DNA of 15,246 nt from Cyanobacteriota bacterium. Lineage in GTDB: Bacteria > Cyanobacteriota > Cyanobacteriia > Leptolyngbyales > Leptolyngbyaceae. Positions 435-15,246 of this stretch are shown in pieces (within the stretch, counting starts at the first letter, position 1; each line of letters starts with the position of its first letter). The translations under genes and the position numbers were made by a program. The notes under the pieces were generated by a model that did no database searches, was not told the origin of the DNA, and was given only the letters and a program-made list of their open reading frames with translations. The stretch lies in the NCBI GenBank assembly GCA_027482985.1, contig JAIXVO010000634.1, positions 1 to 15,246 of the forward strand, in the 5' to 3' direction.

Positions 435-1196
435 ATGAATTTAAGTCAGGCGATCGCACTGGTGACAGGAGCCAATGGGGGCATCGGTTCTCATTTTGTC
501 GAACAACTGCTGCAATTTGATGTTGCCAAAATATATGTTTGTGCCAGGACACTGAATAAACTGAATGACTTAGTTGCGCTTGACCCAACTCGGATTATTC
601 CAGTTGAGCTAGACGTGACTAATGCTGAATCCGTGAATGCGGCGGCAGCTCAATGTGCGGATGTCAACCTGCTCATTAACAATGCGGGCACCTCGCTCAA
701 CCAAGGCATTATTGCGGCACCGGATTTGGAAAGCGCCAGAGCTGAAATCGAAGTCAACTATTTTGGCATGGCCGCCATGTGTCGCGCCTTTGCGCCGATT
801 CTGAAGCAGCAAGGAGGGGGCGCGATCGTCAATATCTTATCGCTCCTGGGCAAAGTCAATCTGCCGTTTAGCGGTTCCTACAGTGCGTCTAAAGCAGCGG
901 CAATTTCGATGACCCAGAGTGTCAGAGCGGAACTGACGGCGCAGCAGACCTTAGTGGTTGGGGTCATGCCAGGCACCGTTGATACCGATTTGGCGAAAGC
1001 GTGGCCTAACCCGAAAGTAGCTCCGGCGGAAGTGGCAAGAGCAGCCTTGCAAGCAGTGCTAGACAATCAGGAAGATGTGTATCCGGGAGAACAGGCCAGT
1101 CAGGTTTCGGCGCAACTTCTGAGCGATCCCAAAGGCGTCGAAAAGTATATGGCGAGTTTTCTACCCGGCATGGATCTGGCTGGTACCAATGCTTAA
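435..1196 (+). CDS. SDR-family NAD(P)-dependent oxidoreductase
   Basis: This is a 253-residue protein, the usual length for a classical short-chain dehydrogenase/reductase with a Rossmann fold. The cofactor motif TGANGGIG is at residues 11-18, the acidic D60 is followed by V, and NNAG is at 82-85. The catalytic set is N108, S136, Y149 and K153 (YSASK), with the typical 13-residue S-to-Y spacing. It should act in the cytoplasm as an NAD(P)H-linked alcohol/ketone oxidoreductase; the substrate is not predictable. The ATG at 435 has only a weak AGAG upstream. The gene lies 168 bases after the attC-like site and is convergent with the exporter operon, its stop being 33 bases from that of the ABC transporter. 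It could be an independent gene or a second cassette cargo. Confidence 0.88.
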   Translation: MNLSQAIALVTGANGGIGSHFVEQLLQFDVAKIYVCARTLNKLNDLVALDPTRIIPVELDVTNAESVNAAAAQCADVNLLINNAGTSLNQGIIAAPDLESARAEIEVNYFGMAAMCRAFAPILKQQGGGAIVNILSLLGKVNLPFSGSYSASKAAAISMTQSVRAELTAQQTLVVGVMPGTVDTDLAKAWPNPKVAPAEVARAALQAVLDNQEDVYPGEQASQVSAQLLSDPKGVEKYMASFLPGMDLAGTNA

Positions 1197-1207: not shown

Positions 1208-1259
1208 GCCCAACTCAGTCCGCAAGGGCTTAACCACTTTCGCTACGAATGAGTTGGGC
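1208..1259. terminator. 10-bp inverted repeat at convergent gene ends (possible bidirectional terminator)
   Basis: GCCCAACTCA (1208-1217) is the exact reverse complement of TGAGTTGGGC (1250-1259), separated by 32 bases. The left arm begins 11 bases after the SDR stop. The right arm lies in the last codons of the ABC transporter, and the loop contains that gene's stop codon. A shared stem-loop between two converging genes would suit transcription termination in both directions. There is no T-run and the loop is long, so the role is uncertain. Confidence 0.4.
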
Positions 1260-3542
1260 ATAAACGCCACCCGCTTCATAAAGGGATTGATGGATGCCGC
1301 GTTCGACGACTTGACCGCGATCGAAGACAATAATTTCATCACAATCGCGAATCGTACTCAGCCGATGCGCCACGATGATACAGGTACAACCGCGCCGACT
1401 GAGGTTGCGGGTAATTAACTTTTCGGTTTCCGTATCCAGCGCACTGGTGGCTTCATCCATCACCAAAATCGCCGGATTGCGGACCAGCGATCGCGCAATT
1501 TCCAGACGTTGCCGCTGCCCCCCACTGAGATTCGCCCCACCTTCGATCAGTTCGGCATTGTAGCCCCCTGGTAGGGACAGAATGACATCATGAATCAGGG
1601 CATCCTGGCAGGCGCGGACTAAATTGCGATCGCTCACCGTGGGGTCCCACAATGTCAAGTTATCCCGCACGGTGCCCGCGAACAGCAGAATATCCTGTTC
1701 CACCAACGCCATGGAGTAGGTCAAGACGGCACGCGGAATCTGGGCGAGGGGTTGACCATCCAGATAAATTCCACCCGCCCAGGGTTGGTAAAGCCCCGTC
1801 ACCAGTTTGATCACCGTGGATTTACCCGAACCACTGCCTCCCACTAGGGCAATCCGCTGTCCCGGTTGAATCATGAGGCTGAAATCGGTAATCAGGGGCG
1901 GATTAATGGGGGTGTAGCCGAAGGTGATGTTTTGCAGTTCAATGTGCCCCTGTAAGCGAAAATTATCGCGGTCGATGTGAGGTGACAGGGGTTGATCCGT
2001 AGGGGTGGGGAAAGCCCAGGGCAAGGAGGGGCGATCGAGGAAAGCGGGCATTGCGCGATCGGCTTGCAGTTGGGGATCAATTTCATTGCTCAACACATCT
2101 TCTAAACGACTCACATCGCCTTCTAACTCCTGCAACGTGCCACCCAAATTCACCAACCGCCGCACAGGTTCTAGAAAACTTTGCATCAGGCTGAGAAAGG
2201 CCACCAGTCCACCAATACTGAGGTTGCCATTCATGACGCGAAAGCCGCCCACCACCAGCAACAACACGGATGCTAATTGCGCCAGTGTGGTTGGTAACGT
2301 GCTGAGAGTTTGATTCTGCAAACCTAACGCTTGATAGGAATTAATTGCTTTGGTGTAGTAGCCGACCCAACGCGCAAAAAAATCAGACTCCAGGGCAGAT
2401 GATTTCAAGGTTTCAATACTTTGCAAGCCCGAAATGGCCACCCCTGCCGCCCGTCCCGTTTCCATGCCCAGACGAATGTTAGCGTCCTTCCGTTGCCGCG
2501 ACACCCACTGTAGGGCCACCAAATTCATCCCGGCAAAGATCATCCCGATCGCCGTTAGAGCCCGGTCATACTGCAACATCACCAAGCTATAAAACAGCAT
2601 CATCACCAGATCAATCACCGTCGTCGCTAACCGACCCGATAACACATCCGCGACCTTATCATTGAGCCTGGTGCGATTCGCAATTTCACCCGCATAGCGT
2701 TGAGCATAAAAATTAATCGGCAATCTTAAAATGTGCCATAAAAACTGGCTCGACATTTTCACAGCTAACTTAATTTTGAGCCGTCGCAAATAACGCAGTT
2801 GCAACCCAGAAAGCAATCCTTTTAGCACTGCGGTGATAAGCATACCGAATAATAAGGGGCGCAACCAATCCTGCTGTCCCTGCACCAAGATATTATCGAC
2901 AAAGACTTGCGTAAACACCGGGATGGCAATTCCTGGCACCACTAGTAATAAACCAGCCAACAAACAATACGCTAAAGCTTTGACTGAGCCTCGCAAGCGA
3001 TCGCGCAAAGCCCTCACCACATCCGGTTTGCGTCCCCCCCGCCGAAACTCAGAGCCGGGTTCCATCACCAACACCACACCCGTGTAGGCTTCATCAAATT
3101 CCTGCAAGGTAGCAGTCCGGGGGCCTGTTGCCGGATCATTGAGAAACACGCGATCGCGCCCCCAACCCTCCACGACGAGAAAATGATTGAAATTCCAGAA
3201 CACAATATAAGGACAACGCAACTCTTGCAGCGCATTCAGTCCTTTTTTAAAACCCTTGGCCGTGAGGCCATATTGTTTAGCCGCTTTGACTAAATTGACT
3301 GCCGTACTGCCATCCCGCGACACGCCACAGTCCTGCCGCAACACCGCCAACGGCACAATCTTGCCATAGTACGACAGGATAATGCCCAACGCTGCCGCCC
3401 CGCATTCGACCGCTTCCATCTGGAGCACAGTGGGCGTTTGCACTCGTTTACCCCGCGTGCCCCGCCAGCGGAACCAGGCTTTGTGCCAAGTCGCAGCGAT
3501 CGCTGCGAACACCGGGAACCGACTCAAAGCCATGGCGATCAC
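1230..3542 (-). CDS. NHLP-type bacteriocin exporter: C39 peptidase / ABC transporter permease / ATPase
   Basis: This 770-residue inner-membrane protein should cleave a leader peptide after a double-glycine-type site and export the core peptide using ATP. The N-terminal C39 peptidase domain (about 35-165) has TPTVLQMEAVECG with catalytic C47, H120 in FNHFLVVEGW and D136 in NDPATG. Six transmembrane helices occupy roughly 185-460. The ATPase domain (about 530-770) has Walker A GGSGSGKST (568-576), the signature LSGGQRQ (672-678), Walker B ILVMDEATSALD (692-703) and the switch H726. All catalytic residues are present. The GTG start at 3542 overlaps the HlyD stop as GTGA and has AGGGA about five bases upstream. 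An ATG three codons later is the alternative. Closest family from memory: NHLM/NHLP bacteriocin peptidase/ATP-binding ABC transporter. Confidence 0.92.
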   Translation of the reverse strand: MIAMALSRFPVFAAIAATWHKAWFRWRGTRGKRVQTPTVLQMEAVECGAAALGIILSYYGKIVPLAVLRQDCGVSRDGSTAVNLVKAAKQYGLTAKGFKKGLNALQELRCPYIVFWNFNHFLVVEGWGRDRVFLNDPATGPRTATLQEFDEAYTGVVLVMEPGSEFRRGGRKPDVVRALRDRLRGSVKALAYCLLAGLLLVVPGIAIPVFTQVFVDNILVQGQQDWLRPLLFGMLITAVLKGLLSGLQLRYLRRLKIKLAVKMSSQFLWHILRLPINFYAQRYAGEIANRTRLNDKVADVLSGRLATTVIDLVMMLFYSLVMLQYDRALTAIGMIFAGMNLVALQWVSRQRKDANIRLGMETGRAAGVAISGLQSIETLKSSALESDFFARWVGYYTKAINSYQALGLQNQTLSTLPTTLAQLASVLLLVVGGFRVMNGNLSIGGLVAFLSLMQSFLEPVRRLVNLGGTLQELEGDVSRLEDVLSNEIDPQLQADRAMPAFLDRPSLPWAFPTPTDQPLSPHIDRDNFRLQGHIELQNITFGYTPINPPLITDFSLMIQPGQRIALVGGSGSGKSTVIKLVTGLYQPWAGGIYLDGQPLAQIPRAVLTYSMALVEQDILLFAGTVRDNLTLWDPTVSDRNLVRACQDALIHDVILSLPGGYNAELIEGGANLSGGQRQRLEIARSLVRNPAILVMDEATSALDTETEKLITRNLSRRGCTCIIVAHRLSTIRDCDEIIVFDRGQVVERGIHQSLYEAGGVYAQLIRSESG

Positions 3543-4990
3543 GTTCCCTGAGCGAAAGATTTGAAAATCGGAAGGATAAACGTGATCGGCGCTTGGCGAT
3601 CAATCGTGGCGCGAATCGAAGCAGTTGTTCCCGGTGAGAGTTGCAGTTCAGGGCCGCGAGAGGACGACCATTGATACCCCGAAGCGTTGGCAGGATTCGG
3701 TTGCAGCGTCGCCTGGACGGCTAACTGTCCCCCCGTAACGGTAAGCCCATCAGCGACTTCGGCGCTCCCCACCGTGCTCACCATCGCCTCCCGGCTAATG
3801 GGCAGGGGCGACACCGTTTTGACTGTCCCTACAATCCCCCCATACCGCTCGCGGGGCACTGAATCGGGTGTGATTTGCATGGTCATACCCGGTTCCAGGC
3901 GCTTCCCATCTTTAATCTTGAAATAGGCGATCGCCACCAGTGGGGCGGACTGGTGATCCGCTTCCACCAGCCCAATGCGATCGCCCGCTTGCAACACCTG
4001 CCCAGGTTTCGCCGTCAGTTCCAGCACTCGCCCACTGACCGCGCTGGTAATTTGGCTACTTTGTTGCAGTTGCAGTTGCAGTTGGGCAATTTGTTGTTGC
4101 ACTGCCTGGATCTGGTTACTGCGTTGCATTGAGGCTTCCAGCGATCGCTGTTGGAGTTGCTGCTTTTGGGCTTGCAGATCTTGCAGTTGCGCTTGCACCG
4201 TTTCCACTTGCCGGAGCGTAGCGCGATAGGTTTGGTCAATCGTCAGCAAGCGACGGTTCAACTCCTGGATCTGGGCCTTCAAAGCGGCAATTTGCTGTTG
4301 ATTCTCCTGATACGCCTGCGCCGATTGCAAAAATAAATCAATAGAAATCGCCCCCTCATTCAACAACTGCTGACGATTGTCTAACTGTTGTTGCAACACA
4401 GGAGCCAGCGCCTCCTTATTGGCTAAAGCACGAGTCAATGACTGCTGTTGAGTTTGCAGGGTTAACCGTTCTTTCGTGCGGATGGGTTCCAGGAGCGCTT
4501 GTTGATCCTGGAGCGTCTTTTGCAGCGTCCGTTCTTGCTGCTGGATTGCTTGCAGGGCTGCGGTTGTTTGCCGCTGCATCACTGCCGTCAGTTGCCGCTG
4601 CTGCTGCCGGAGCCGTTGCCAAGTTGCCGTTTGCTGTTGCAATGCCTGCCGCAATTCCAGTCGGGCCATCGCCCCAATCACCTGCCCGGCTTGCACGCGA
4701 TCGCCCGGTTTCACCCGCAACGTGGCTACCTGTCCGGCAATGGGCGACTGCAACGCCGTCGTTTGGTCAGGATAAAGCAACACCCCCCGCCCTTCCACCG
4801 TCACCGGAATTCGTCCCCAAATACTCCAACTAACAGCCCCTACCACAATCGACCCCAGCGCCACCAAAAACAACCAGTCGCGGGGAGCCACCACCTGCAT
4901 CAATTGATCCAACCGTTCTGGGGAAGACAGGCGTTCCAACGATTCTTGCCGAAAGATATTTGGTTTTTGGTTCAATCCCCCACCCTCCAT
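3539..4990 (-). CDS. HlyD-family membrane fusion/adaptor protein of the NHLP bacteriocin exporter
   Basis: The protein has 483 residues from the ATG at 4990. Its N-terminus has IFRQESLERLSSPERLDQL, typical of NHLP secretion adaptors. One transmembrane helix follows (about 38-58), then a biotinyl-lipoyl-like half (about 78-112, SPIAGQVATLRVKPGDRV). A very long glutamine-rich coiled coil (about 112-320) leads to the second lipoyl half (VSGRVLELTAKPGQVLQAGD) and a beta-barrel region. It should span the periplasm and join the ABC transporter to an outer-membrane channel. A TTG at 5023 would add 11 residues, but the ATG at 4990 shares its A with the upstream TAA stop (TAATG), pointing to translational coupling, so I prefer it. 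No clear ribosome binding site precedes either start. The 3' end overlaps the ABC gene by four bases. Confidence 0.88.
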   Translation of the reverse strand: MEGGGLNQKPNIFRQESLERLSSPERLDQLMQVVAPRDWLFLVALGSIVVGAVSWSIWGRIPVTVEGRGVLLYPDQTTALQSPIAGQVATLRVKPGDRVQAGQVIGAMARLELRQALQQQTATWQRLRQQQRQLTAVMQRQTTAALQAIQQQERTLQKTLQDQQALLEPIRTKERLTLQTQQQSLTRALANKEALAPVLQQQLDNRQQLLNEGAISIDLFLQSAQAYQENQQQIAALKAQIQELNRRLLTIDQTYRATLRQVETVQAQLQDLQAQKQQLQQRSLEASMQRSNQIQAVQQQIAQLQLQLQQSSQITSAVSGRVLELTAKPGQVLQAGDRIGLVEADHQSAPLVAIAYFKIKDGKRLEPGMTMQITPDSVPRERYGGIVGTVKTVSPLPISREAMVSTVGSAEVADGLTVTGGQLAVQATLQPNPANASGYQWSSSRGPELQLSPGTTASIRATIDRQAPITFILPIFKSFAQGT

Positions 4991-6012
4991 TAAAATCGCG
5001 CCCGCACCCGTCTCAGCAACCAATCAAACCGCGCCCCGGCCAGCGAGACATGCGCCAGGGTTTGCAGATCAATTTCATCCTCATATTCCAGCTCATCGGC
5101 CAGGGGTTGATCCTGGGTATAAGACAGTTTGCCATACCCATGCCGAGTTAACCGATCTTGTAACCGTTCCGCCAACACGACGGCGATCGCGCGATAAAAC
5201 CGGGCGGCAAAGGGCTGATCCTGACGCAGTTTAGCCGCCAATTCCGTCCGGGGTAACGCCCACACGAGGCAATTTTCCACGGCTTTGACCGTAGCCGATG
5301 CCATTTGGGCCTCCACAAAAGACATTTCCCCTAAAATTTCCCCCGTCGCCAGCCGCGCCACTTCTTTACTCACCTGCTGCCCATTCACCTGCGCCGAAAT
5401 CACCACTGCCAAAGTGCCATCCAACAAGATATAAATGGCATCCAACGCCTTCCCTTCTTCAATTAACAAAGTCGTGGCAGACAACGGACAGGGCACCCCC
5501 ACCCTCACCATCCAATCCAGATCGCTATCGTACAACTCAGCAAACACTAACAGCACTTTGCGGAGGGGTTGTTCCGCTGGCGCTTGACTGCGCACCAGCA
5601 AACTGGCAATCCCCCGCACCTGAGTCGATAAAAAAACCGAAGCGGTTTGGTAAAACCGCGCTGCGAACCCAGCATCTTGGTGCAATTTGGCGGTCAGTTT
5701 GCCGTGAGGAATCATGAGCACCTGCGCGGCTTCCGTCGCGATCGCGCGCGTCACAGCAGGGCGACCGTTGATGAAAGATAATAACCCCAGTTCCTCACCA
5801 GGTTGCACCACCGCCACCTGCTGTTCCCCCGCATCCGGGCTAGTGACAACGAGCGTAAATGCCCCCGCCAAGACCCAATACATTGCCTGCAACCGCTGAT
5901 CCGCCTGCACCAGTTCGGTATGCGCCGCGATCGCCGCGATCGTCCCCACCTGCCCCAGCCAATCCAGATCCGTTTGATTAAAAGCGCCTAACGGTAACCC
6001 TAATTTATCCAT
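4990..6012 (-). CDS. Tandem cyclic-nucleotide-binding-like protein of the NHLP exporter operon
   Basis: The protein has 340 residues with two cNMP-binding-like folds (about 15-135 and 165-290) and a charged tail ending SLAGARFDWLLRRVR. It is first in the exporter operon. Proteins of this kind are recurrent neighbours of cyanobacterial NHLP exporters, and a regulatory or accessory role in export is inferred. The phosphate-binding cassettes are degenerate. Canonical CAP/PKA cassettes read G-E-x-A ... P-R-A/S-A. The first repeat (71-91) has LGLL and GRPAVT, lacking both Glu and Arg at the expected positions. The second (225-243) keeps GE (E229) but has QMASATV, with Met where the phosphate-binding Arg should be. 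Ordinary cAMP binding is therefore doubtful. There is no DNA-binding helix-turn-helix. The ATG at 6012 has AGAAAGAG a few bases upstream. Confidence 0.82.
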   Translation of the reverse strand: MDKLGLPLGAFNQTDLDWLGQVGTIAAIAAHTELVQADQRLQAMYWVLAGAFTLVVTSPDAGEQQVAVVQPGEELGLLSFINGRPAVTRAIATEAAQVLMIPHGKLTAKLHQDAGFAARFYQTASVFLSTQVRGIASLLVRSQAPAEQPLRKVLLVFAELYDSDLDWMVRVGVPCPLSATTLLIEEGKALDAIYILLDGTLAVVISAQVNGQQVSKEVARLATGEILGEMSFVEAQMASATVKAVENCLVWALPRTELAAKLRQDQPFAARFYRAIAVVLAERLQDRLTRHGYGKLSYTQDQPLADELEYEDEIDLQTLAHVSLAGARFDWLLRRVRARF

Positions 6013-6829: not shown

Positions 6830-7684
6830 GTGAACAAAAAGATTTTGGTGATTGTGTCTGAATGGGGGTATTGGGGTGAAGAACTGGTCGGCCCCTATGA
6901 TGTCTTACTCGCCGCTGGCTACACTTTTGATTTTGCCACGGCCTACGGGCGCAAACCACCCGCCCTGCCCCCCAGCATGGATGAGACCTACGTCGATCCC
7001 CCGTTGGATAAACTCGTCACAGATGCCCACTACGCCAAACGGACACGCGAGATTGACGGTTCTGACTTACTCGCGAAGCCGATTAACCTCTCGGCCTGGT
7101 TTCCGGCCATGCCTTATTTCAATAGCGACAATTTTGGGCATGCGCTAGAAGCGTACTACACCCTCCGCGCCAAAGCCTGGAAAGACCTGGAACAATACGA
7201 TGCCTTGCTCTTGCCGGGTGGCTCTGGCCCCATGGTAGACATGGTGAACAATGAGCGCGTGCATGATGTCATTTTAGGCTTCTTGGCGCAAGGTAAATTG
7301 ATTGCTGCCGAATGCTATTGTGTCACCTGCCTTGCGTTCGCCCGCGACTGGACCGATCGCAAGAGCATTATTTGGGGTAAGCACGTCACCGGACACGCCC
7401 GCGAATACGACTACAAAGATGGCACCGGGTTTGCGCAAATGTATGGCTATGATGGGCAACCGATGAATACCTCCGCCAACTTCGGCCCCCCGTTCTACCC
7501 GTTGGAATACATTCTGCGCGATGCCGTTGGTCCCGATGGGCAATATCACGGCGGGGTCGGACATACCCTTTCCACAATTCTGGACTACCCGTTTTTAACT
7601 GGACGATCCACCCAGGATTCTAAATTAGTGGGTGAACTCATGATTCAAGCCTTAGAGCATGGATTGAAACGCTACGGCTGGTAA
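6830..7684 (+). CDS. DJ-1/PfpI (type 1 glutamine amidotransferase-like) family protein
   Basis: The protein has 284 residues, longer than the simple ~190-residue DJ-1 proteins and closer to the Hsp31-like size. The N-terminus ILVIVSEWGYWGEELVGPYDVL carries the acidic pair E17/E18, then LPGGSGPMVD (128-137). The nucleophile-elbow region is LIAAECYCVTC (157-167). The presumed nucleophile is C162, with C164 and C167 nearby. In Hsp31 and many PfpI-type members the elbow reads A-x-C-H-G; here the residue after Cys is Tyr and the next is Cys, so the usual Cys-His pairing is changed. Functions in this superfamily include glyoxalase/deglycase, protease, chaperone and isonitrile hydratase; none can be chosen. 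The GTG start at 6830 has the strong site AAGGAAGG (6816-6823). It precedes the ThDP-enzyme operon but is 810 bases away and may be transcribed separately. Confidence 0.85.
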   Translation: MNKKILVIVSEWGYWGEELVGPYDVLLAAGYTFDFATAYGRKPPALPPSMDETYVDPPLDKLVTDAHYAKRTREIDGSDLLAKPINLSAWFPAMPYFNSDNFGHALEAYYTLRAKAWKDLEQYDALLLPGGSGPMVDMVNNERVHDVILGFLAQGKLIAAECYCVTCLAFARDWTDRKSIIWGKHVTGHAREYDYKDGTGFAQMYGYDGQPMNTSANFGPPFYPLEYILRDAVGPDGQYHGGVGHTLSTILDYPFLTGRSTQDSKLVGELMIQALEHGLKRYGW

Positions 7685-8494: not shown

Positions 8495-10201
8495 ATGGCT
8501 GGTAAAACGTACCGTTTTGCAATTATTGAACAATTGCTGGCGGACGGGATTCGCTATATGTTTGGCAACCCTGGCACAGTTGAACAAGGATTTTTAGATG
8601 CCCTCTGGGATTATCCCGAACTCAAGTACATTTTGACTTTGCAAGAAACGATCGCGGTCATGGCTGCAGATGGCTATGCCCGTGCCACGGGAAACGTCGC
8701 GATCGTACAACTCCACAGCACACCTGGTGTGGGGAATGGCATCGGTGCCCTCTATCAAGCCAAACGGGGTCACTCGCCCTTGGTGGTGATTGGGGGCGAT
8801 TCTGGAGTCAAGTACCAGGGTATGGATGCGCAAATGGCAGGGGATCTAGTCGCCATGGCTGAACCCGTGACCAAATGGTCCACGATGGTAGTTGATCCAA
8901 ATTCCGTCTTACGAGTGCTGCGACGAGCGATCAAGATTGCCACCACGCCGCCCTGTGGACCAGTTTATGTCTGTTTCCCGCAAGATATTTTGGATTACCC
9001 CGTGGCGGAACCGATTCGCCCCACCTCCCGGCCTTCAACCCGCGTGGTGCCTGATGATGACACCCTTAAAAGTGCAGCGCAACAGTTAGCAGTCGCTCAA
9101 ACACCCATGATTTTTATCGGGGATGGAATCGCCTTTTCGGGCGCGCAGGCCGAGTTAACCTGCGTTGCAGAATTGCTGGGTGCAGAGGTGTGGGAAGCCG
9201 ATAATGGCGAACTGAATATGAGTCAGTCCCATCCTCTGTATCAAGGAGCCACTGGACATATGTTTGGCTTTCAAAGCCAACCGATCCTGGCGAAAGGAGA
9301 TGTGAATTTAGTGGTTGGCACCTACATTGTGCCGGAAGTCTTTCCCGATTTGGGCGATGTGTTTGCACCAAACGCCAAGGTCATTCACATTGATCTCAAT
9401 GCCTATGAAATTGCGAAGAATCATCCCGTTGATATAGGCATGGTGAGTGATCCCAAACTGACCTTAGCCAAATTGGCGGCGGTTTTGGAGACGATCTTAA
9501 CACCCGACCAAAAGGCAGCAGCAGCACAACGCCTAGCGACGATCGCCAGTGCCAAACAAACCAAGCTAGAGGCCGCGCTAGCGCACGATCGCACGATTCG
9601 CGATGAAGTGCCATTACATCTGTCACGATTTATGGAAGAGTTAGTGGCATTACTCCCAGAAGATGCCATTATTTTTGATGAGGCACTCACGAACTCTCCT
9701 GCCATTCCCCGCTATCGTCCGACCACCGAACCCAAACACTATTTCCTCACGCGCGGAGGCTCTCTAGGCGTTGGGATTCCGGGCGCGATCGGGGCGAAAT
9801 TAGCCCATCCCGACAAAACCGTGATTGGGTTTACGGGAGATGGAGGGGGGATGTATACCATCCAGGCGTTGTGGACAGCCGCGCGCCACAATGTCGATGC
9901 CAAGTTTGTCGTTTGCAACAATCGCTCTTATCGCATCTTGCAATATAACATTCAGCAGTACTGGAAAGAAATCGAAGTCCCCGAACGGAATTTCCCCTTA
10001 AGCTTTGACTTATCAAAGCCAGAAATTCGGTTTGATGAATTGGCGCGATCGCTCGGTGTCGCTGCCGTTCGAGTCGAAAAGCCCGAAGAAATTGTCCCTG
10101 CGATTCAACAAGCACTTGCCCATGAGGGTCCCTTCCTCATCGACTTGATGCTAGAAGGGAATGTCCAGCCTGAAATGATTGGCGTGCGGTGTGGGCAATA
10201 G
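8495..10201 (+). CDS. ThDP-dependent enzyme, benzoylformate decarboxylase-like
   Basis: The protein has 568 residues, slightly longer than benzoylformate decarboxylase (MdlC). The PYR domain has NPGTVEQGF (25-33), cofactor-activating E51 in LTLQETIAVMAADGYA, and LHSTPGVGNGIGAL with H74. In the Pseudomonas putida enzyme the equivalent segments carry S26 (NPGSNE) and H70 (LHSAAGTGN); here Ser26 becomes T28 and His is kept. The PP domain has the ThDP/metal motif GDG (448-450) with NN at 475-476. A non-oxidative 2-keto-acid decarboxylase or carboligase is expected; the substrate is unknown. The ATG at 8495 is chosen because AAGGAAGGAG (8479-8488) precedes it at seven bases. A GTG at 8438 would place that site inside the coding region. 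It is the first gene of a six-gene run and ends 47 bases before the next start. Confidence 0.88.
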   Translation: MAGKTYRFAIIEQLLADGIRYMFGNPGTVEQGFLDALWDYPELKYILTLQETIAVMAADGYARATGNVAIVQLHSTPGVGNGIGALYQAKRGHSPLVVIGGDSGVKYQGMDAQMAGDLVAMAEPVTKWSTMVVDPNSVLRVLRRAIKIATTPPCGPVYVCFPQDILDYPVAEPIRPTSRPSTRVVPDDDTLKSAAQQLAVAQTPMIFIGDGIAFSGAQAELTCVAELLGAEVWEADNGELNMSQSHPLYQGATGHMFGFQSQPILAKGDVNLVVGTYIVPEVFPDLGDVFAPNAKVIHIDLNAYEIAKNHPVDIGMVSDPKLTLAKLAAVLETILTPDQKAAAAQRLATIASAKQTKLEAALAHDRTIRDEVPLHLSRFMEELVALLPEDAIIFDEALTNSPAIPRYRPTTEPKHYFLTRGGSLGVGIPGAIGAKLAHPDKTVIGFTGDGGGMYTIQALWTAARHNVDAKFVVCNNRSYRILQYNIQQYWKEIEVPERNFPLSFDLSKPEIRFDELARSLGVAAVRVEKPEEIVPAIQQALAHEGPFLIDLMLEGNVQPEMIGVRCGQ

Positions 10202-10237
10202 TCAGAAATAGTTTCAATTGGCAATCTAAGTTGAGTC

Positions 10238-10244
10238 GAGGAAG
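10238..10244 (+). promoter_or_regulatory. Ribosome binding site that favours a TTG start
   Basis: GAGGAAG lies four bases before the in-frame TTG at 10249. The in-frame ATG at 10276 has no purine-rich site at the right distance. The site therefore supports TTG initiation of the small SnoaL-like gene. Confidence 0.45.
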
Positions 10245-10248
10245 ATCA

Positions 10249-10710
10249 TTGAGTACAACCACTATTAGTAGTTCCATGAGTACCGAACAAATTAATGCTT
10301 TTGTGGCTGCCTGGTATCGGGCGCTGGATTTCCACGTTCCCATTGAAGAAGTCTATCCCTACTTAGCGGATGTAGGCTTAAACGTCCAATTTCCAGATGG
10401 CAACATTACTGATTTAGCCAGTTTCAAAGTTTGGTATGACCGAGTCATCAACTTATTTTTTGATGAGAATCATAACGTCGTTTCGGTCGAGTCAAATGTG
10501 ACAGGTGATACGGCCATTTTAGATATTGTGGTGGCGTGGCAGGCGAGCTGGTGGGAGCCACCCGCCGCTAAAAGTAAGCGCACTTCAATGAACGCCACTC
10601 AACAATGGACCGTCCGCAAATCGAGCAAAAATTCCTACGGACTGGAAATTGTCACCTACAATGCGACGGTCAAGCCGTTTGAGTATGCCCCTGGGTTCGC
10701 TCAACTCTAA
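10249..10710 (+). CDS. Small NTF2/SnoaL-like protein of unknown function
   Basis: The protein has 153 residues from the TTG at 10249, or 144 from the ATG at 10276. The body reads like a single SnoaL-like/NTF2 cone fold. A helical start (TEQINAFVAAWYRALD) is followed by a loop (FPDGNITDLASFKVWYDRVINLFF), then strands with HNVVSVESNVTGDTAILDIVVAWQA and a last strand around GLEIVTYNATVKPF. The extra N-terminus (MSTTTISSS) is Ser/Thr-rich and probably disordered. I cannot name catalytic residues. It differs clearly from the two ester-cyclase-like genes downstream: no GTHTG and no GK..E...D segment. It lies 47 bases after the ThDP enzyme and 33 before the porin, so it is probably co-transcribed and may act on the same pathway. 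Confidence 0.7.
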   Translation: MSTTTISSSMSTEQINAFVAAWYRALDFHVPIEEVYPYLADVGLNVQFPDGNITDLASFKVWYDRVINLFFDENHNVVSVESNVTGDTAILDIVVAWQASWWEPPAAKSKRTSMNATQQWTVRKSSKNSYGLEIVTYNATVKPFEYAPGFAQL

Positions 10711-10743
10711 CGGGTACAGACTGATGTTTAGTGGTGTGTTGCA

Positions 10744-12480
10744 ATGATCAAGTTGTCTTACTCCTGGAATCCAATGCAACGACTGTGGTTGCCCCTAGCT
10801 CAAGCGTTAACGATTGGCTGTCTGGTGGGCAGTGGGTTATCGTCGGCAGGTTCCGCGATCGCAGCGACTCCGACTCTAGATCTCAACCCACTGGCGGATC
10901 TGGATAGTCCTGCCCGCACTGCCGTTAATGACCTGAGTGCCGAGGCGGGATTGGATCAAGTCACGTCGGTGTCCCAACTAACGGACGTAAAGCCCACCGA
11001 TTGGGCATTCCAGGCACTTCAGTCGTTAGTCGAGCGGTATGGTTGTATCGTCGGTTATCCTGACAAAACCTATCGCGGCAATCGCGCCCTCAGTCGGTAT
11101 GAATTTGCGGCAGGCTTGAATGCCTGTTTAGACAAGATTCAAGAACTGATTGCCGCCGCTACCGCCGATTTTGTCAAGAAAGAAGACTTAGAAGTGGTGA
11201 AGCGACTGCAAGAGGAGTTTGCCGCTGAACTGGCCAGTTTAAGAGGTCGGATCGAGGCATTAGAGGTGCGCACTGCCACCCTGGAGAAACAGCAATTCTC
11301 GACCACGACGAAGTTCTTTGGGGTGATGAGTTATAACCTCATTGATGCCGTGTCCGGGGATGGGCAAACAGAAACGGTGGGACAATATGCCACCTATCTG
11401 GGCTTGTCTACCAGTTTCACGGGTCGAGATTTGTTGCTGTACTCCATGTATGCCAGCAATACCAACATTCCTGAATATACCGTTTTCAATAATGGGCGCG
11501 ATGTGGGCAGTACGCGAGAAGGGTTAACGACCTGGGCCTATGGCGGTTCCACGGGCAGCGGGTTATTTTCCCTCAGTCTGGAATATCTGTTTCCCGTGTT
11601 TACGCGCGAACGCGATCGCATGTATGTGACCCTAGCCGCAAACAATGGCTTCAACACCTCCCGCTTCTTACTCCCTTTCTCCGGTTTAACCTGGGAAGGC
11701 GCAAACCTCGGTGCAGGGCCAATTTCTGCCTTTGGACAACGGAGCCCAATGTATCGCTTGGGGGGTGGATCGGGGGCGATCGTCAATTATGACAACGGAC
11801 CCTGGCGCTTGACGGGGGGGTATCTCGCCGCTAAAGCCAACAATCCCAGTGAAGGGGCAGGCTTATTTGATGGTAATTATCTGGCGTTGGCGCAACTCAA
11901 CTTCACCCCCAGCAGTCGGTTTGGGTTAGCCCTGGCCTATCGTAATAACTACTTCAGTGCGGGTGAGTTTGCCTTTAATAACCAGTACTCTTTCGGGCCG
12001 AATAGTCCCGGATTTGTGGGCACCGGGTTAGCCAACCGCTTTGACAATGCCGGCGTGTTCTTTAATCGAGATGTACCCGTAGTCAGTAATAGCTATGGTG
12101 TCCAGGGCTATTACGCGATCAGTCCCCGGTTTGTGGTGGGAGGATATGCCACCAAAATTGATGCCCGCCTGCTGGGTCGGGGCGATGCCGATATCTGGAC
12201 GTATGCCCTGAATCTAGCGCTTCCCGATTTGGGTAAGAAAGGTAATTTGGGTGGGGTGATTGTGGGTGTGGAGCCGATGTTAACCGGGTTGAAGATTGGC
12301 GATCGCTTTGTGGGAGGGTTCAAACGTGATACGTCCCTCCACATCGAAGCCTTTTATCAGCATAATATTTCGGATCGGATTGCCATCACACCGGGAGTGA
12401 TGTGGATTACGGCCCCGAACCAGGACAACAGTAACAAAGACTTAGTGGTGTTGGTGTTAAGAACAACGTTTAACTTTTAG
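10744..12480 (+). CDS. Cyanobacterial outer-membrane porin with SLH domain (OprB / Som type)
   Basis: The protein has 578 residues. A signal peptide with hydrophobic LPLAQALTIGCLVGSGL ends at AIA, giving cleavage after about residue 40. One SLH domain (about 75-133: LTDVKPTDWAFQALQSLVER ... GYPDKTYRGNRALSRYEFAAGLNACLDKI) should bind the cell wall, followed by a short coiled coil (about 145-185). An OprB-like beta-barrel runs from about 188 to a C-terminal Phe (LVLRTTFNF), the usual outer-membrane insertion signal. These porins let small polar solutes across the outer membrane. The ATG at 10744 has no strong ribosome binding site. An ATG at 10774 (MQRLWLP) would give a more compact signal peptide and is a fair alternative. 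Placement inside an enzyme operon suggests uptake or release of the pathway compound. Confidence 0.9.
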   Translation: MIKLSYSWNPMQRLWLPLAQALTIGCLVGSGLSSAGSAIAATPTLDLNPLADLDSPARTAVNDLSAEAGLDQVTSVSQLTDVKPTDWAFQALQSLVERYGCIVGYPDKTYRGNRALSRYEFAAGLNACLDKIQELIAAATADFVKKEDLEVVKRLQEEFAAELASLRGRIEALEVRTATLEKQQFSTTTKFFGVMSYNLIDAVSGDGQTETVGQYATYLGLSTSFTGRDLLLYSMYASNTNIPEYTVFNNGRDVGSTREGLTTWAYGGSTGSGLFSLSLEYLFPVFTRERDRMYVTLAANNGFNTSRFLLPFSGLTWEGANLGAGPISAFGQRSPMYRLGGGSGAIVNYDNGPWRLTGGYLAAKANNPSEGAGLFDGNYLALAQLNFTPSSRFGLALAYRNNYFSAGEFAFNNQYSFGPNSPGFVGTGLANRFDNAGVFFNRDVPVVSNSYGVQGYYAISPRFVVGGYATKIDARLLGRGDADIWTYALNLALPDLGKKGNLGGVIVGVEPMLTGLKIGDRFVGGFKRDTSLHIEAFYQHNISDRIAITPGVMWITAPNQDNSNKDLVVLVLRTTFNF

Positions 12481-12486
12481 TGACAT

Positions 12487-12500
12487 CCGCTCACAAGCGG
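12487..12500 (+). repeat. Small hairpin directly before a ribosome binding site
   Basis: CCGCT (12487-12491) and AGCGG (12496-12500) form a 5-bp stem with loop CACA. The stem starts six bases after the porin stop and ends two bases before AGGA (12503-12506) of the next gene. It may mark an RNA processing or stabilising point between the cistrons. Confidence 0.35.
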
Positions 12501-12514
12501 TCAGGAAAACTCCA

Positions 12515-13027
12515 ATGTCTACCCAGACCAACAAAGCATTAGCCTCCCGTTATTACCAGGAATTACTGAATGGTGGTGATTTGTCGTTCATTGACCACTA
12601 CATGGCAGCGGACTTCATTTTTACCAACCCTACCCACCCCCACCCCTACTGTGGGCAGGAGTTCAAACAACTGGTCGGAATGCTCCATGCTGCCTTTCCT
12701 GACATTCATTTTGTGGTGGAGCGGCTCGTTGCCGAAGACGACGTGGTGGTGGGGCGCTGGACGGCGACAGGCACCCATACGGGCACAGCGCTGAATACCC
12801 TGCAGGGTGATATTCCGGCGCTAGGCTATCCCTTTTCGATTTGTGGGATGTCCTGGTTGCGGATTGAGGCTGGCAAATTTGTCGAATCGCGAGTCCTGGA
12901 AGACACGCTGGGACTACTGCAACAACTGGGCTTCCCTGGTTGCCTGGAGGCTCCAGTGGACTCACCCACTCCGGGCGATCGCTCCTCCCCTCCCACAACG
13001 TCAGTCTCACCCTTTGCGTGGTCATAA
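12515..13027 (+). CDS. SnoaL-type ester-cyclase-like protein (single domain)
   Basis: The 170-residue protein consists of one SnoaL-like domain (about 4-139) plus a low-complexity tail rich in Ser, Thr and Pro (about 148-170). Motifs shared with the next gene include FPDIHF (61-66), RWTATGTHTG (81-90, H88), GDIPALGYPF, GMSW and a final GKFVES....LEDTLGLLQQLG with D130. In polyketide cyclases of the SnoaL/AknH type a late Asp is the proposed general acid/base, and D130 sits in the corresponding segment. The fold also includes hydrolases and proteins without known activity, so cyclase is a family label, not a proven function. An AGGA site lies nine bases before the ATG at 12515. Its similarity to the first half of the next gene indicates tandem duplication. 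Confidence 0.82.
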   Translation: MSTQTNKALASRYYQELLNGGDLSFIDHYMAADFIFTNPTHPHPYCGQEFKQLVGMLHAAFPDIHFVVERLVAEDDVVVGRWTATGTHTGTALNTLQGDIPALGYPFSICGMSWLRIEAGKFVESRVLEDTLGLLQQLGFPGCLEAPVDSPTPGDRSSPPTTSVSPFAWS

Positions 13028-13095
13028 ACCTACCCTGATAGATTGTTTCGATTCCATCCCGCACCCATATTTTCATCTACAAAGGACTCATTTCC

Positions 13096-13977
13096 ATGTC
13101 TACGCTTGAAGCTAATAAAGCCGTTGCCCGTCGCTACTTCTACGAAGTCTTCAATAAAGCAGATATGGAGACGTTGGAAGCGATTTGTTCGCCCGATTTC
13201 GTCTTTTATCTGCCGACTCACACCGAACCCTTTAAGGGCGTGGATGGCTACAAAGGATTGGTGCAAATGCTAGTGGGCTGTTTTCCCGATATTCACTTTG
13301 CGGTGGAAGACATGATTTCGGAAGGGGATATGGTGCTCACCCGCTGGACGGCTCGCGGCACTCACACGGGAATTCCGTTCCCGACGGTGTTGGGAGACGT
13401 GCCTGCTGTGGGTAACCCCTTTGAAATTGAAGGCATGACCTGGCACAAGATCGTGGATGGCAAGATCGCCGAAGTGTTTGCCAATGAAGATGGGCTGGGG
13501 CTGGTCACCCAACTCGGTCGCGCCCTCTTCCCCGGCACCGCTCCCATGATTCCCAAGCCGACTCCCGTCGAAACCTGTAAAGCGGTGGCAAAACGCTATT
13601 ACGACGAGTTGCTGAACCAGAAAAAGGCCACCCACGTGGAGGACATTTTGACCCCTGATTTCGTCCTGCACCTGCCCACCTTGAAAGATCCGGTCCGCGG
13701 CATTGCGGCGATGAAACACTACCTGGCAGATTTACACAAAGCCTTCCCCGATCTGCATTACACCGTCGATCGCGAAATCGTGGACGACAAAGAAGTGGCG
13801 GTGCGTTACTCCATGACGGGCACCCACAAGGGCGAATTCATGGGCATTGCCGCCACGGGGAAGGCCGTGAAAGATGCGGGCAATGACATTTTCCATTTCG
13901 ATGACGGCAAGATTAGCGCCATCTGGGGCAGTAACGATGCGATGGGCGTTTTGCACCAACTGGGCGCGATCGCCTGA
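13096..13977 (+). CDS. Two-domain SnoaL-type ester-cyclase-like fusion protein
   Basis: The 293-residue protein has two consecutive SnoaL-like domains (about 4-145 and 157-291) joined by a Pro-rich linker (PGTAPMIPKPTP). Domain 1 closely resembles the preceding gene: FPDIHFAVE, RWTARGTHTG, GDVPAVGNPF, GMTW and GKIAEVFANEDGLGL with D132. Domain 2 is more diverged but keeps AFPDLHYTV, TGTHKG (239-244) and GKISAIWGSNDAMGVLHQLG with D281. Most single members of this fold are near 130-150 residues and pair up as dimers, so the fusion may be a covalent dimer or may hold two different active sites. AAAGGAC precedes the ATG at 13096 by about nine bases. It sits 68 bases after its paralogue and 61 before the hydrolase. 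Confidence 0.87.
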   Translation: MSTLEANKAVARRYFYEVFNKADMETLEAICSPDFVFYLPTHTEPFKGVDGYKGLVQMLVGCFPDIHFAVEDMISEGDMVLTRWTARGTHTGIPFPTVLGDVPAVGNPFEIEGMTWHKIVDGKIAEVFANEDGLGLVTQLGRALFPGTAPMIPKPTPVETCKAVAKRYYDELLNQKKATHVEDILTPDFVLHLPTLKDPVRGIAAMKHYLADLHKAFPDLHYTVDREIVDDKEVAVRYSMTGTHKGEFMGIAATGKAVKDAGNDIFHFDDGKISAIWGSNDAMGVLHQLGAIA

Positions 13978-14025
13978 GGCGGCTGACCTGATTGATCACA
14001 AGTACACACCTTACCGAAAGTCCAT

Positions 14026-14030
14026 AGGAG
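14026..14030 (+). promoter_or_regulatory. Ribosome binding site of the alpha/beta hydrolase gene
   Basis: AGGAG lies eight bases before the ATG at 14039 and 17 before a second in-frame ATG at 14048. It therefore selects the first ATG. Confidence 0.6.
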
Positions 14031-14038
14031 ATTAACGT

Positions 14039-15246
14039 ATGCCCTCAATGTCCAATGAAGCCGAACAGCGGGTGCGGCGGTTTAGCGAACAACGCTGGAT
14101 TCTGGATAACATCATTCGTACAGTCGGCGTGACCTGGAACCAGGGCGATCTGGACTATGCCCTGTTCCCCTGTGGGATTGGGGCGCTGGGTGACTTTTTA
14201 CGGGTGGAAAAGAGCGTCAAAAAGTACGACGACATCGCCCGTGAGTATGGATCAGCCGCCATCCGGCGGCAGCGCCATGGGGAAGAACAGGAAAAACAGG
14301 GCTACTTGGTGGCAGCGCGAGAAAGTTTCTACATTGCCTCGGTGTTGTATGGGCAGGCGCAATGGCCGATCGCCGAACATACCAAAATGAATTACGACTT
14401 CGAGGAGCGGAAGAATTACTGCTACGCCAAGTATTGCCAGTACATTGACCACATCACGCGCAAAGCCGAAATTCCCTACCAACACGGTCACATTCTGGGC
14501 TATTTGCACCTGCCGCCCAACTACAAAGAAGGGGATCAAGTGCCCTGTGTGATTTGTATTGGCGGGATGGACAGCACCAAAGAAATCTCTGTCGCACTGC
14601 ATAGTGATAAGTTTTTGACTCGCGGTGTAGCCGTCTTTAACTTTGATGGGCCAGGACAATATACCTGCAACATGCAGAAGATTTATATTGACGAAAAGGG
14701 CTTCTATCAGGCGGGTGAAGCCGTTTGGGCGTGGTTGCAACAACAGCCGGAAGTGGATCAAAACATGATTGGGGTGCAGGGTGTGAGCATGGGTTCCATC
14801 TGGGGCACTCAGGTCGCATCCGTGATTCCGAATGTGAAAGGCTGCGCGATCGGCTATCCCAGCTATGAGCAGGGTGAAAATCGGGCGTTCAATATGTATT
14901 CCCCCTCCTTCAAGTTGCGCTTCATGTTTATGGCGGGTTACACCGATGAAGCCAAGTTTGACAAGTTCATTCAAGGCATCAACTCGAAAGGGTTAGGCAA
15001 GAAAGTGAACTTCCCCTATCTGGTGATTGGCGGCGAAGATGATGATTTTGCGTCGATCGAGTCCACTTTTGATGTGTTGAACGAAGTCAAAGCGCCGAAG
15101 GAATATCTGCTGTACCAGGGTGAAGGTCATACCCTGCACAGCCGCCCTTCCAGCTATGCTGGCCCCAGTGAGTGGTCCTACATTGCCGATTGGATGTGCG
15201 ATCGCTTCAAAGGGAAACCCATGGAATCGACCCTCTCGATCGTGGA
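14039..15246 (+). CDS. Alpha/beta hydrolase, 2,6-dihydroxypseudooxynicotine hydrolase / Ayg1-like group (3' end outside window)
   Basis: 402 codons are visible and the frame runs off the right edge. A helical N-terminal part (about 1-140) is followed by an alpha/beta hydrolase core: VPCVICIGGMDSTKE (168-182, oxyanion region), FNFDGPGQ (200-207), nucleophile S250 in GVSMG, an acid in GGEDDDF (331-337, probably D336) and H364 in GEGHTLHSR. The combination of an N-terminal helical segment, GGMDS, FDGPGQ and GVSMG is what I associate with the DUF1100/FrsA-like group. That group includes dihydroxypseudooxynicotine hydrolase, which cleaves a C-C bond, and fungal Ayg1, which shortens a polyketide chain. 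C-C bond hydrolysis is therefore plausible but unproven. There is no signal peptide, so it should be cytoplasmic. It lies 61 bases after the two-domain SnoaL gene. Confidence 0.85.
   Translation, partial: MPSMSNEAEQRVRRFSEQRWILDNIIRTVGVTWNQGDLDYALFPCGIGALGDFLRVEKSVKKYDDIAREYGSAAIRRQRHGEEQEKQGYLVAARESFYIASVLYGQAQWPIAEHTKMNYDFEERKNYCYAKYCQYIDHITRKAEIPYQHGHILGYLHLPPNYKEGDQVPCVICIGGMDSTKEISVALHSDKFLTRGVAVFNFDGPGQYTCNMQKIYIDEKGFYQAGEAVWAWLQQQPEVDQNMIGVQGVSMGSIWGTQVASVIPNVKGCAIGYPSYEQGENRAFNMYSPSFKLRFMFMAGYTDEAKFDKFIQGINSKGLGKKVNFPYLVIGGEDDDFASIESTFDVLNEVKAPKEYLLYQGEGHTLHSRPSSYAGPSEWSYIADWMCDRFKGKPMESTLSIV

Follow-up and report, generated by a model that had tools for sequence, protein, structure and literature searches.

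The window, the whole 15,246-nucleotide stretch of DNA analysed here, is one entire contig (C35) that ends in six closely packed genes on the forward strand: a benzoylformate-decarboxylase-like, ThDP-dependent enzyme of 568 amino acids (8495..10201), a small NTF2-like protein of 144 amino acids (10276..10710), an OprB/por_somb outer-membrane porin (10744..12480), a single-domain SnoaL-like protein (12515..13027), a tandem SnoaL protein with two domains (SnoaL2, 13096..13977) and an alpha/beta hydrolase of the FrsA/DHPON-hydrolase/Ayg1/AntI type (14039..15246), cut at the contig end after 402 of its 427 residues. All six open reading frames reported in the initial annotation were confirmed; the spacing of 33–68 bases that it gave holds for four of the five gaps (33, 34, 68 and 61 bases), which follow a ThDP/NTF2 gap of 74. 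A DJ-1/ThiJ-like protein (6830..7684, forward strand; PF17124), which the initial annotation overlooked, is encoded 810 bp upstream of the ThDP gene. Further to the left lie an exporter trio on the reverse strand (1230..6012), comprising an ABC transporter with a C39 peptidase domain, an HlyD-type protein and a TIGR03896 cyclic-nucleotide-binding protein, which also adjoins the ThDP cluster in a related genome (G416), and a forward-strand SDR oxidoreductase (435..1196), which has a 60% identical relative in the ThDP cluster of G229 and is a possible, not a certain, member of the same cluster. Rfam gave no match, and promoter- and terminator-like sites were no more frequent than in shuffled sequences.

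The gene order continues past the window, as had been proposed: its last 16 bases recur at the head of another contig of the same assembly (C629) when that contig is reverse-complemented, and in this orientation C629 completes the hydrolase in frame, with a C-terminus closely matching that of a 90% identical relative (P0001). Extension to the right, a check suggested at the outset, revealed a further SnoaL-SnoaL-GMC oxidoreductase-SnoaL_2 series on C629. Contamination is disfavored because the porin is of the por_somb type and several of the genes have close cyanobacterial relatives.

The ThDP enzyme (Pfam PF02775/02776/00205) starts at the ATG that follows AGGAAGGAG, and the relatives listed are mostly 565–570 residues long. 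Its nearest solved structures are benzoylformate decarboxylases (BFD), in agreement with the original assignment, although at 315.5 bits it falls below the cut-off of 493 for the NCBIfam benzoylformate decarboxylase equivalog NF005485. Shared with BFD are the three ThDP domains, the GDG motif, the active-site Glu and the first His, whereas Thr occupies the position of the BFD Ser and no His is present in the stretch aligned to the second BFD His, where both aligned PDB chains also lack one; in BFD, the Glu is the activating residue and both His belong to the active site. The small NTF2-like protein has no Pfam match, is 36–43% identical to eight relatives encoded in other ThDP clusters, and reaches a probability of only 11% in a profile comparison (hhalign) with the SnoaL genes; two of its relatives match SnoaL_2 weakly, one just below Pfam's cut-off (E 1e-5) and one just above it (6e-6). 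The initial count of four NTF2-type domains is therefore likely rather than certain; the SnoaL genes account for three of them, with PF07366 scores of 99 bits for the single-domain and 212.9 bits for the tandem protein against a Pfam cut-off of 28.4.

The tandem SnoaL protein is 59% identical to its counterpart in G596 and 43% to that in G416. Like the SnoaL-type polyketide cyclases IdmH and SnoL, the SnoaL proteins exceed the PF07366 cut-off, and IdmH is the best sequence match in PDB; unlike them, the window has two domains fused in tandem and no recognized polyketide synthase nearby. The porin scores 455.6 bits with NF033921 (cut-off 100) and also matches an SLH domain in Pfam. Among the five best non-self matches listed in a search of 244 genomes, in most of which the five best candidates were scored, three have an AGE-STAS-GlgX module no more than 10 kb away (AGE denoting a protein of the N-acylglucosamine 2-epimerase superfamily); other porins of similar identity (49–54%), including one that the window's own genome carries on contig C554, are not near AGE.

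The predicted structure of the hydrolase (pLDDT 88.6) consists of an N-terminal helical domain and an alpha/beta-hydrolase domain, and its top structural matches are 2jbw, 8qd7, 3our, 8qd1 and 6hxa, the closest fold being that of DHPON hydrolase. The two-domain fold is common to 2,6-dihydroxypseudooxynicotine hydrolase (2jbw), Ayg1p/Wdyg1p (8qd1/8qd7) and AntI (6hxa), with TMq values of 0.67–0.76, as is the Ser-Asp-His triad, which here comprises Ser250 in a GxSxG frame, Asp335 and His364 and is invariant in 28 sequences; in addition, the GMD(S) loop aligns with the GLDS loop of AntI. These features bear out the earlier family assignment and make the protein look like an Ayg1/AntI/DHPON-type putative C-C hydrolase, although identity over the fold is only about 17–20% and the window's enzyme has no PKS partner and belongs to a glucan-linked cluster. 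With 52 bits, it stays far below the cut-off of 477 for the FrsA esterase family NF003460. The gene is rare: it was found in one of 386 genomes of the phylum, namely the window's own, in three of 217 genomes in the family of G231 (70%, 39% and 39% identity), in one of nine further genomes, the already known G596, and in none of 13 from the genus of G042. The contig collection yielded two distant relatives (31–32%) and plasmids another two (29–30%), while the matches in protein records include one from Nostoc punctiforme (69%) and actinobacterial ones (67–75%).

In G416 (inferred to be Tildeniella nuda), a homologous stretch of about 19 kb, all on one strand, runs from ThDP through RsbW in the order ThDP-NTF2-SnoaL2-SnoaL-ABM-porin-NmrA-GMC-SnoaL_2-SnoaL-SnoaL_2-ADH-DJ1small-VOC-TMEM175-AGE-STAS-GlgX-STAS-RsbW. 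The window's genome has a contig, C563, with the order ADH(part)-DJ1small-VOC-AGE-STAS-GlgX-STAS-RsbW, whose proteins are 68–90% identical to those of G416 (71% for ADH over the part present). C563 is thus tied to the window's contigs by synteny, the contigs not being physically joined; a search for the piece between C629 and C563, for which 301 residues of ADH from G416 served as the query, returned just the known C563 fragment and distant paralogues (30–38%). In G596, the order is AGE-DJ1small-DJ1-ThDP-NTF2-SnoaL2-hydrolase-cupin-SnoaL_2-GMC-VOC-GH13, which keeps ThDP, NTF2, tandem SnoaL and hydrolase together with AGE and GH13 at either side; this locus (L043) was found via the hydrolase, the presence of which is therefore by selection. 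The AGE-STAS-GlgX-STAS-RsbW module of G231 is found 23–28 kb downstream of ThDP; other genes intervene, a few of them on the opposite strand (AGE is 23 kb from ThDP in G231 and 28 kb in G229). With the AGE-type protein (model pLDDT 79), a profile search matched N-acylglucosamine 2-epimerase structures (8bry, E 5.5e-6); a single-sequence search gave nothing convincing.

The neighborhood had been expected to recur in other cyanobacteria, and a survey of ThDP loci found parts of it conserved. Among 16 other ThDP loci (18 are known; those of G605 and G606 were left out of the counts), a DJ-1-like gene occurs within 8 kb in all 16, an alpha-glucan enzyme (GlgX, GH13 or GH77) in 14, and AGE, at distances of up to 28.5 kb, in 12; all of the counted AGE and glucan genes are on the ThDP strand. 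Eleven control stretches contained no DJ1, AGE or alpha-glucan genes but two ThDP-family genes; they spanned 20 kb, and five of the ThDP loci were read beyond that distance. Two ThDP loci have GH77 and no AGE, two genomes (G080 and G123) have the ThDP/DJ1 pair with neither AGE nor a glucan gene nearby, the G123 contig ending about 5 kb on, and an NTF2/SnoaL gene is absent from 3 of the 16 loci. At the genome level, AGE is carried by five of six ThDP-positive genomes, the window's own included, and by 14 of 238 ThDP-negative ones (Fisher's test, 1e-5, ignoring relatedness and assuming that two draws with the same totals, in which some negative genomes go unnamed, are the same 244 genomes). These comparisons show, from sequence, that the ThDP enzyme and the DJ-1-like protein form a conserved pair. 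Around this pair the set of NTF2/SnoaL, GMC, VOC, EthD and porin genes varies, and most of the relatives read also encode an AGE-type protein and an alpha-glucan enzyme on the strand of the pair. The linkage of the cassette to glycogen genes is well supported, and the original view of one functional cluster holds. The idea of a stand-alone six-gene catabolic pathway is rejected. Beyond the six genes the cluster takes in GMC and, judging from synteny, ADH, DJ-1, VOC, AGE and GlgX; the G416 version goes on into a partner-switch operon of the icfG type.

The icfG operon has been described, in work from 1994 on, as a regulatory hub for inorganic carbon and glucose (PMC12329169), and its content and role are treated in PMC12329169 and PMC8670252, the icfG passages of which give no product for the AGE-type and other metabolic genes. 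The order AGE-STAS-GlgX-STAS-RsbW in G416, G231 and C563, in each case preceded by a small DJ-1-like protein, is shared with the icfG operon of Synechocystis PCC 6803 (slr1852-slr1862), as deduced from locus numbers in those passages. The differences are the large ThDP/porin/SnoaL/hydrolase/GMC/ADH/VOC cassette in front, unnamed in the same passages, and, in the window's genome, the lack of a SpoIIE phosphatase gene after RsbW on C563 and of a direct contig link; G231 has SpoIIE after RsbW, and G416 carries a GAF-SpoIIE gene next to ThDP but on the opposite strand. Among the loci read, STAS/RsbW genes share a contig with the cluster in G416 and G231 only. At 16 AGE loci outside the training set (from 15 genomes, two with a distant DJ-1/ThDP pair, some on short contigs), profiles detected SnoaL/NTF2 genes in five and porins in four (controls, 0/11 and 1/11), and GMC and ADH in none (controls, 2/11 and 1/11); training members were picked from the training loci with earlier profiles, which leaves some dependence between the two sets, and EthD was taken from Pfam and later profiles since an iterated EthD profile drifted to unrelated proteins. 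Because these genes are scarce there, many icfG-type operons lack the cassette. As the genes before DJ1small-AGE differ between genomes, that position seems to serve as a slot in which one cassette can be exchanged for another. The slot is filled differently in G231 and G074, where CHASE2-cyclase and MBL genes precede the ThDP cassette in the former but a porin/EthD cassette in the latter; G064 has the MBL gene.

On this basis, our preferred reading, with a probability of roughly 0.6, is that the window carries the 5' portion of an icfG-type metabolic cluster tied to glycogen. Its chemistry, product and control by icfG are what we infer, each reaction step from family membership. The cassette probably converts sugar-derived oxo-compounds by oxidation, dehydration or cyclization, and C-C cleavage or ligation: glycogen debranching and AGE would supply the sugar, GMC and other oxidoreductases would turn out an oxo- or dicarbonyl sugar that DJ-1 and VOC proteins could rearrange or hydrate, and SnoaL, NTF2 and EthD proteins could carry out dehydration or cyclization. 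The ThDP enzyme would act on C-C bonds adjacent to a carbonyl, cleaving or joining them, or decarboxylate a 2-keto acid, the Ayg1-like hydrolase would cut a beta-dicarbonyl by a retro-Claisen reaction, and the porin would pass a small substrate or product; the Rsb-like partner switch may tune expression with the Ci/glucose state. An anhydrofructose (glucan lyase) route was set aside, with no glucan lyase among the proteins scanned and nothing of evident relevance in a literature search, anhydrofructose being kept as one possible oxo-sugar. More tentatively, and with the odds against so specific a version, the icfG operon could form the conserved end, under signal control, of an as yet undescribed pathway from glycogen sugar to a small product via oxo-sugar chemistry, the slot before it carrying exchangeable cassettes, of which the window's ThDP-porin-SnoaL-hydrolase set would be one that adds C-C ligation and retro-Claisen trimming. 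A literature search by the combined gene names brought up a sponge microbiome paper and nothing evidently about this cluster. That icfG-type metabolic genes travel with a porin and with enzymes of the redox, C-C-bond and small-barrel kinds offers a lead on their role, and a testable substrate class (glycogen-derived oxo-sugars) and enzyme set follow from the cluster. If the proposal is true, cyanobacterial storage-carbon metabolism would include C-C trimming of the Ayg1/AntI type and ThDP chemistry like that of BFD.

The best placed of the alternatives, itself unlikely, builds on the initial idea of import and C-C cleavage: the genes would form a catabolic operon whose imported substrate is probably aromatic or heteroaromatic, with uptake by the porin, C-C cleavage by the hydrolase, decarboxylation of an aryl-glyoxylate by the ThDP enzyme, and aldehyde oxidation by GMC or molybdenum enzymes. 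The folds of the hydrolase and the ThDP enzyme point in this direction, as do the 2Fe-2S and molybdopterin oxidoreductase subunits in the G229 and G231 clusters, but no ring-cleaving dioxygenase or hydroxylase was found among the scanned proteins of the window and C629, glucan and AGE neighbors recur, and no His stands in the ThDP-enzyme stretch aligned to the second BFD His. Still less probable is the biosynthesis of an aromatic pigment or polyketide-like secondary metabolite by SnoaL cyclases and an Ayg1/AntI chain-trimming hydrolase: against the resemblance of SnoaL2 to IdmH and of the hydrolase to AntI, Ayg1p and Wdyg1p, and the ABM gene in the G416 cluster, stand scores of 18.9 and 41.7 bits with the SnoaL/DnrD methyl ester cyclase family NF033407 (cut-off 200) and the absence of PKS, ACP or ketosynthase among the scanned proteins of the window, C629, G416 and the part of the G596 flanks covered. 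We give similarly little weight to a detoxification module, with no dedicated product, that removes reactive carbonyls (methylglyoxal, glucosone-like products) arising from glycogen or under light stress, which would suit the recurrence of two DJ-1/PfpI proteins, VOC proteins, ADH and SDR, whereas the porin, the tandem SnoaL and the retro-Claisen-type hydrolase fit it poorly and the cassettes vary between genomes.

Chance neighbors with no common function would be consistent with the exact six-gene set, which has no second occurrence among the loci read, and with the exchange of parts between genomes (in the 20 kb read, G596 has the hydrolase but lacks a porin; G416 lacks the hydrolase and has a porin of another OprB type), but are rendered very improbable by the DJ1 and same-strand glucan-enzyme linkages and the 11 controls devoid of DJ1, AGE and glucan genes.

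The ThDP enzyme gene of the window recurs in other cyanobacteria in a partly conserved neighbourhood. Relatives sharing 63% identity or more occur at 18 known loci, of which 16 were read, five over more than 20 kb. The gene-neighbourhood search proposed in the initial annotation shows a DJ-1-like gene within 8 kb of the ThDP gene at all 16 loci; at 15 of them the two are co-directional and no more than 2 kb apart. At 14 of the 16 an alpha-glucan enzyme is encoded (GlgX, GH13 or GH77), a gene of the N-acylglucosamine 2-epimerase (AGE) type lies within 28.5 kb at 12, and at least one NTF2/SnoaL gene occurs at 13; every AGE and glucan gene found at these loci is on the ThDP strand. Two loci have GH77 without AGE. 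The stretches read in genomes G080 and G123 hold neither a glucan enzyme nor AGE; the G123 contig ends nearby, and G080 is absent from the AGE-positive genomes in a draw of 244 genomes. In that draw AGE was found in five of six ThDP-positive genomes (including that of the window) versus 14 of 238 ThDP-negative ones. As controls, 11 arbitrary 20-kb stretches were taken from ten surveyed genomes and G596; they contain no DJ-1, AGE or glucan enzyme gene, and their other matches comprise one porin, two GMC, one ADH, one HlyD, seven ABC and one VOC gene, as well as two ThDP-family genes 27–28% identical to that of the window.

Several individual loci deserve mention. L051 and L052 are ThDP/DJ-1 clusters with a GH77 4-alpha-glucanotransferase and a 2Fe-2S oxidoreductase subunit, and without AGE. 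In G143 (L081) three genes form a set: one of the AGE type, 52% identical to its G604 counterpart, one for a DJ-1-containing protein of 527 residues, and one for a distant ThDP enzyme (32%). The ThDP gene of G612 (L054:9225-10975) is broken into two ORFs around residues 410–424, reflecting either disruption or an assembly error. At L015, in G080, the DJ-1 protein is 88% identical to that of the window and the ThDP enzyme only 71%, and on the basis of these identities separate histories are suggested for the two genes.

The six genes initially annotated at 8495..15246 are all present as described; the gaps between them, given as 33–68 bases, measure 74, 33, 34, 68 and 61 bases, so that four of the five fit and the first lies outside the range. 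Profiles assign the products to a ThDP enzyme, a por_somb/OprB porin with an SLH domain, SnoaL, tandem SnoaL (SnoaL2) and FrsA-like hydrolase families. A Pfam scan of the small gene at 10276-10710 gave no match; its relatives in G231 and G229 match SnoaL_2 weakly, and a profile comparison of it with the SnoaL genes gave a probability of 11%. The window is the entire contig C35 (15246 bases) of a cyanobacterial assembly that is 84% complete, and its gene order does run on, as had been anticipated. Its final 16 bases coincide with the start of the reverse-complemented C629, another contig of the genome, which continues the hydrolase in frame to a full length of 427 residues; the C-terminus closely matches the one in a 90%-identical relative (P0001). 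Next on C629 come SnoaL, SnoaL, a GMC oxidoreductase and a small SnoaL_2 protein, the last two being 69% and 95% identical to their G416 counterparts. A third contig, C563, carries the end of an ADH gene, small DJ-1, VOC, AGE-type, STAS, GlgX, STAS and an RsbW-like ATPase; a stretch bridging C629 and C563 was searched for in this genome and not found.

Counterparts of genes from both segments stand in one uninterrupted series in the relative G416, whose ThDP enzyme is 88% identical to that of the window. The order there is ThDP, NTF2, SnoaL2, SnoaL, ABM, OprB porin, NmrA, GMC, SnoaL_2, SnoaL, SnoaL_2 and ADH, then, on the same strand, small DJ-1, VOC, TMEM175-type, AGE, STAS, GlgX, STAS and RsbW; ThDP and RsbW are 16.6 kb apart, and no gene is called on the opposite strand between them. 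The G416 porin is of another OprB type, and blastp at E 1e-3 does not match it to that of the window. G596 has, on one strand, AGE, small DJ-1, DJ-1, ThDP, NTF2, SnoaL2 (59%), hydrolase (70%), cupin, SnoaL_2, GMC, VOC and GH13. In G231 an AGE-STAS-GlgX-STAS-RsbW-SpoIIE module follows ThDP on its strand at a distance of 23–28 kb; other genes intervene, four of them called on the opposite strand. In G013 (L098), outside the class of the window's genome, AGE-STAS-GlgX-STAS-RsbW-SpoIIE is flanked divergently by a DJ-1-like/ThDP pair, whose proteins are 33% and 24% identical to those of the window.

The AGE module resembles the icfG operon of Synechocystis, which, according to PMC12329169, includes slr1856, slr1857 (isoamylase), slr1859, slr1860 (icfG) and slr1861, and for whose mutants carbon phenotypes are cited there; slr1853 is given as a carboxymuconolactone decarboxylase (CMD) in PMC3564720. 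In G076, CMD, small DJ-1, AGE, STAS, GlgX, STAS, SpoIIE and RsbW follow in this order. No paper evidently on the present gene combination was found in the open-licence literature, although the icfG papers may mention such a cassette in passages other than those cited here.

The region ahead of AGE may be a slot for exchangeable cassettes. Where no ThDP gene is close by, some AGE-STAS-GlgX operons have other gene sets in front: porin, SnoaL and EthD at L082, L090, L092 and L093, and SnoaL and EthD at L094. Profiles trained on other loci and applied to 16 AGE loci and the 11 controls detected NTF2/SnoaL genes at five versus none, EthD at six versus none, porins at four versus one, VOC at two versus one, GMC at none versus two and ADH at none versus one. 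Among the matches listed, the best to the window porin in the 244 genomes are one porin of G197, two of G172 and one each of G064 and G074. The G172 pair is alone on a short contig, the other three have AGE within 10 kb, and a G014 porin adjoining AGE (44%) ranks lower. The front stretches of G231, preceding a ThDP cassette, and G074, preceding a porin/EthD cassette, share a CHASE2-cyclase gene (76%) and a metallo-beta-lactamase gene (81%), the latter also seen in G064 (82%). At the G231 and G074 loci (L014 and L113) these encode a CHASE2-adenylate/guanylate cyclase and an Apyc1-type metallo-beta-lactamase upstream of the cassettes of icfG-type loci. A single 1052-residue protein ahead of the operon at L093 (4438-7596) fuses CMD, EthD, glyoxalase and SnoaL_2 domains.

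The ThDP enzyme of the window shares with benzoylformate decarboxylases the GDG motif, the Glu and the first of two active-site His, and has Thr for Ser; the stretch of the second active-site His contains no His, but a His is likewise absent there from the two aligned chains. The predicted hydrolase model (pLDDT 88.6) has DHPON hydrolase as its best fold match (TMq about 0.75), followed by Wdyg1p, FrsA, Ayg1p and AntI, which agrees with the proposed DHPON-hydrolase/Ayg1-like identity. Ser250, Asp335 and His364 are invariant in 28 relatives, as is Gly176-Met177-Asp178, in a loop aligned with the GLDS motif of AntI, whose role is described in PMC11165489. Among the whole genomes searched, relatives of at least 60% turned up in just two, the window's genome and G596, and in both the hydrolase gene directly follows the tandem SnoaL gene.

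The analysis shows that the genes lie together on one strand and are conserved, and it shows the folds and catalytic residues of their products; beyond this, a route may be envisaged in which a glycogen-derived sugar would be the source, GMC and related enzymes would oxidise, and DJ-1/VOC proteins would handle dicarbonyls. SnoaL-type proteins might then catalyse dehydration or cyclisation and the ThDP enzyme C-C chemistry, with a putative retro-Claisen cleavage and passage through the porin; the partner switch would control the cluster.

At 1230-6012 the window also encodes an ABC transporter with a C39 peptidase domain, an HlyD-type protein and a TIGR03896 bacteriocin-type transport-associated protein. 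This exporter trio is conserved beside the ThDP cluster of G416, in an arrangement relative to DJ-1 that differs from that of the window, the G416 DJ-1 gene lying beyond the trio on the other strand.
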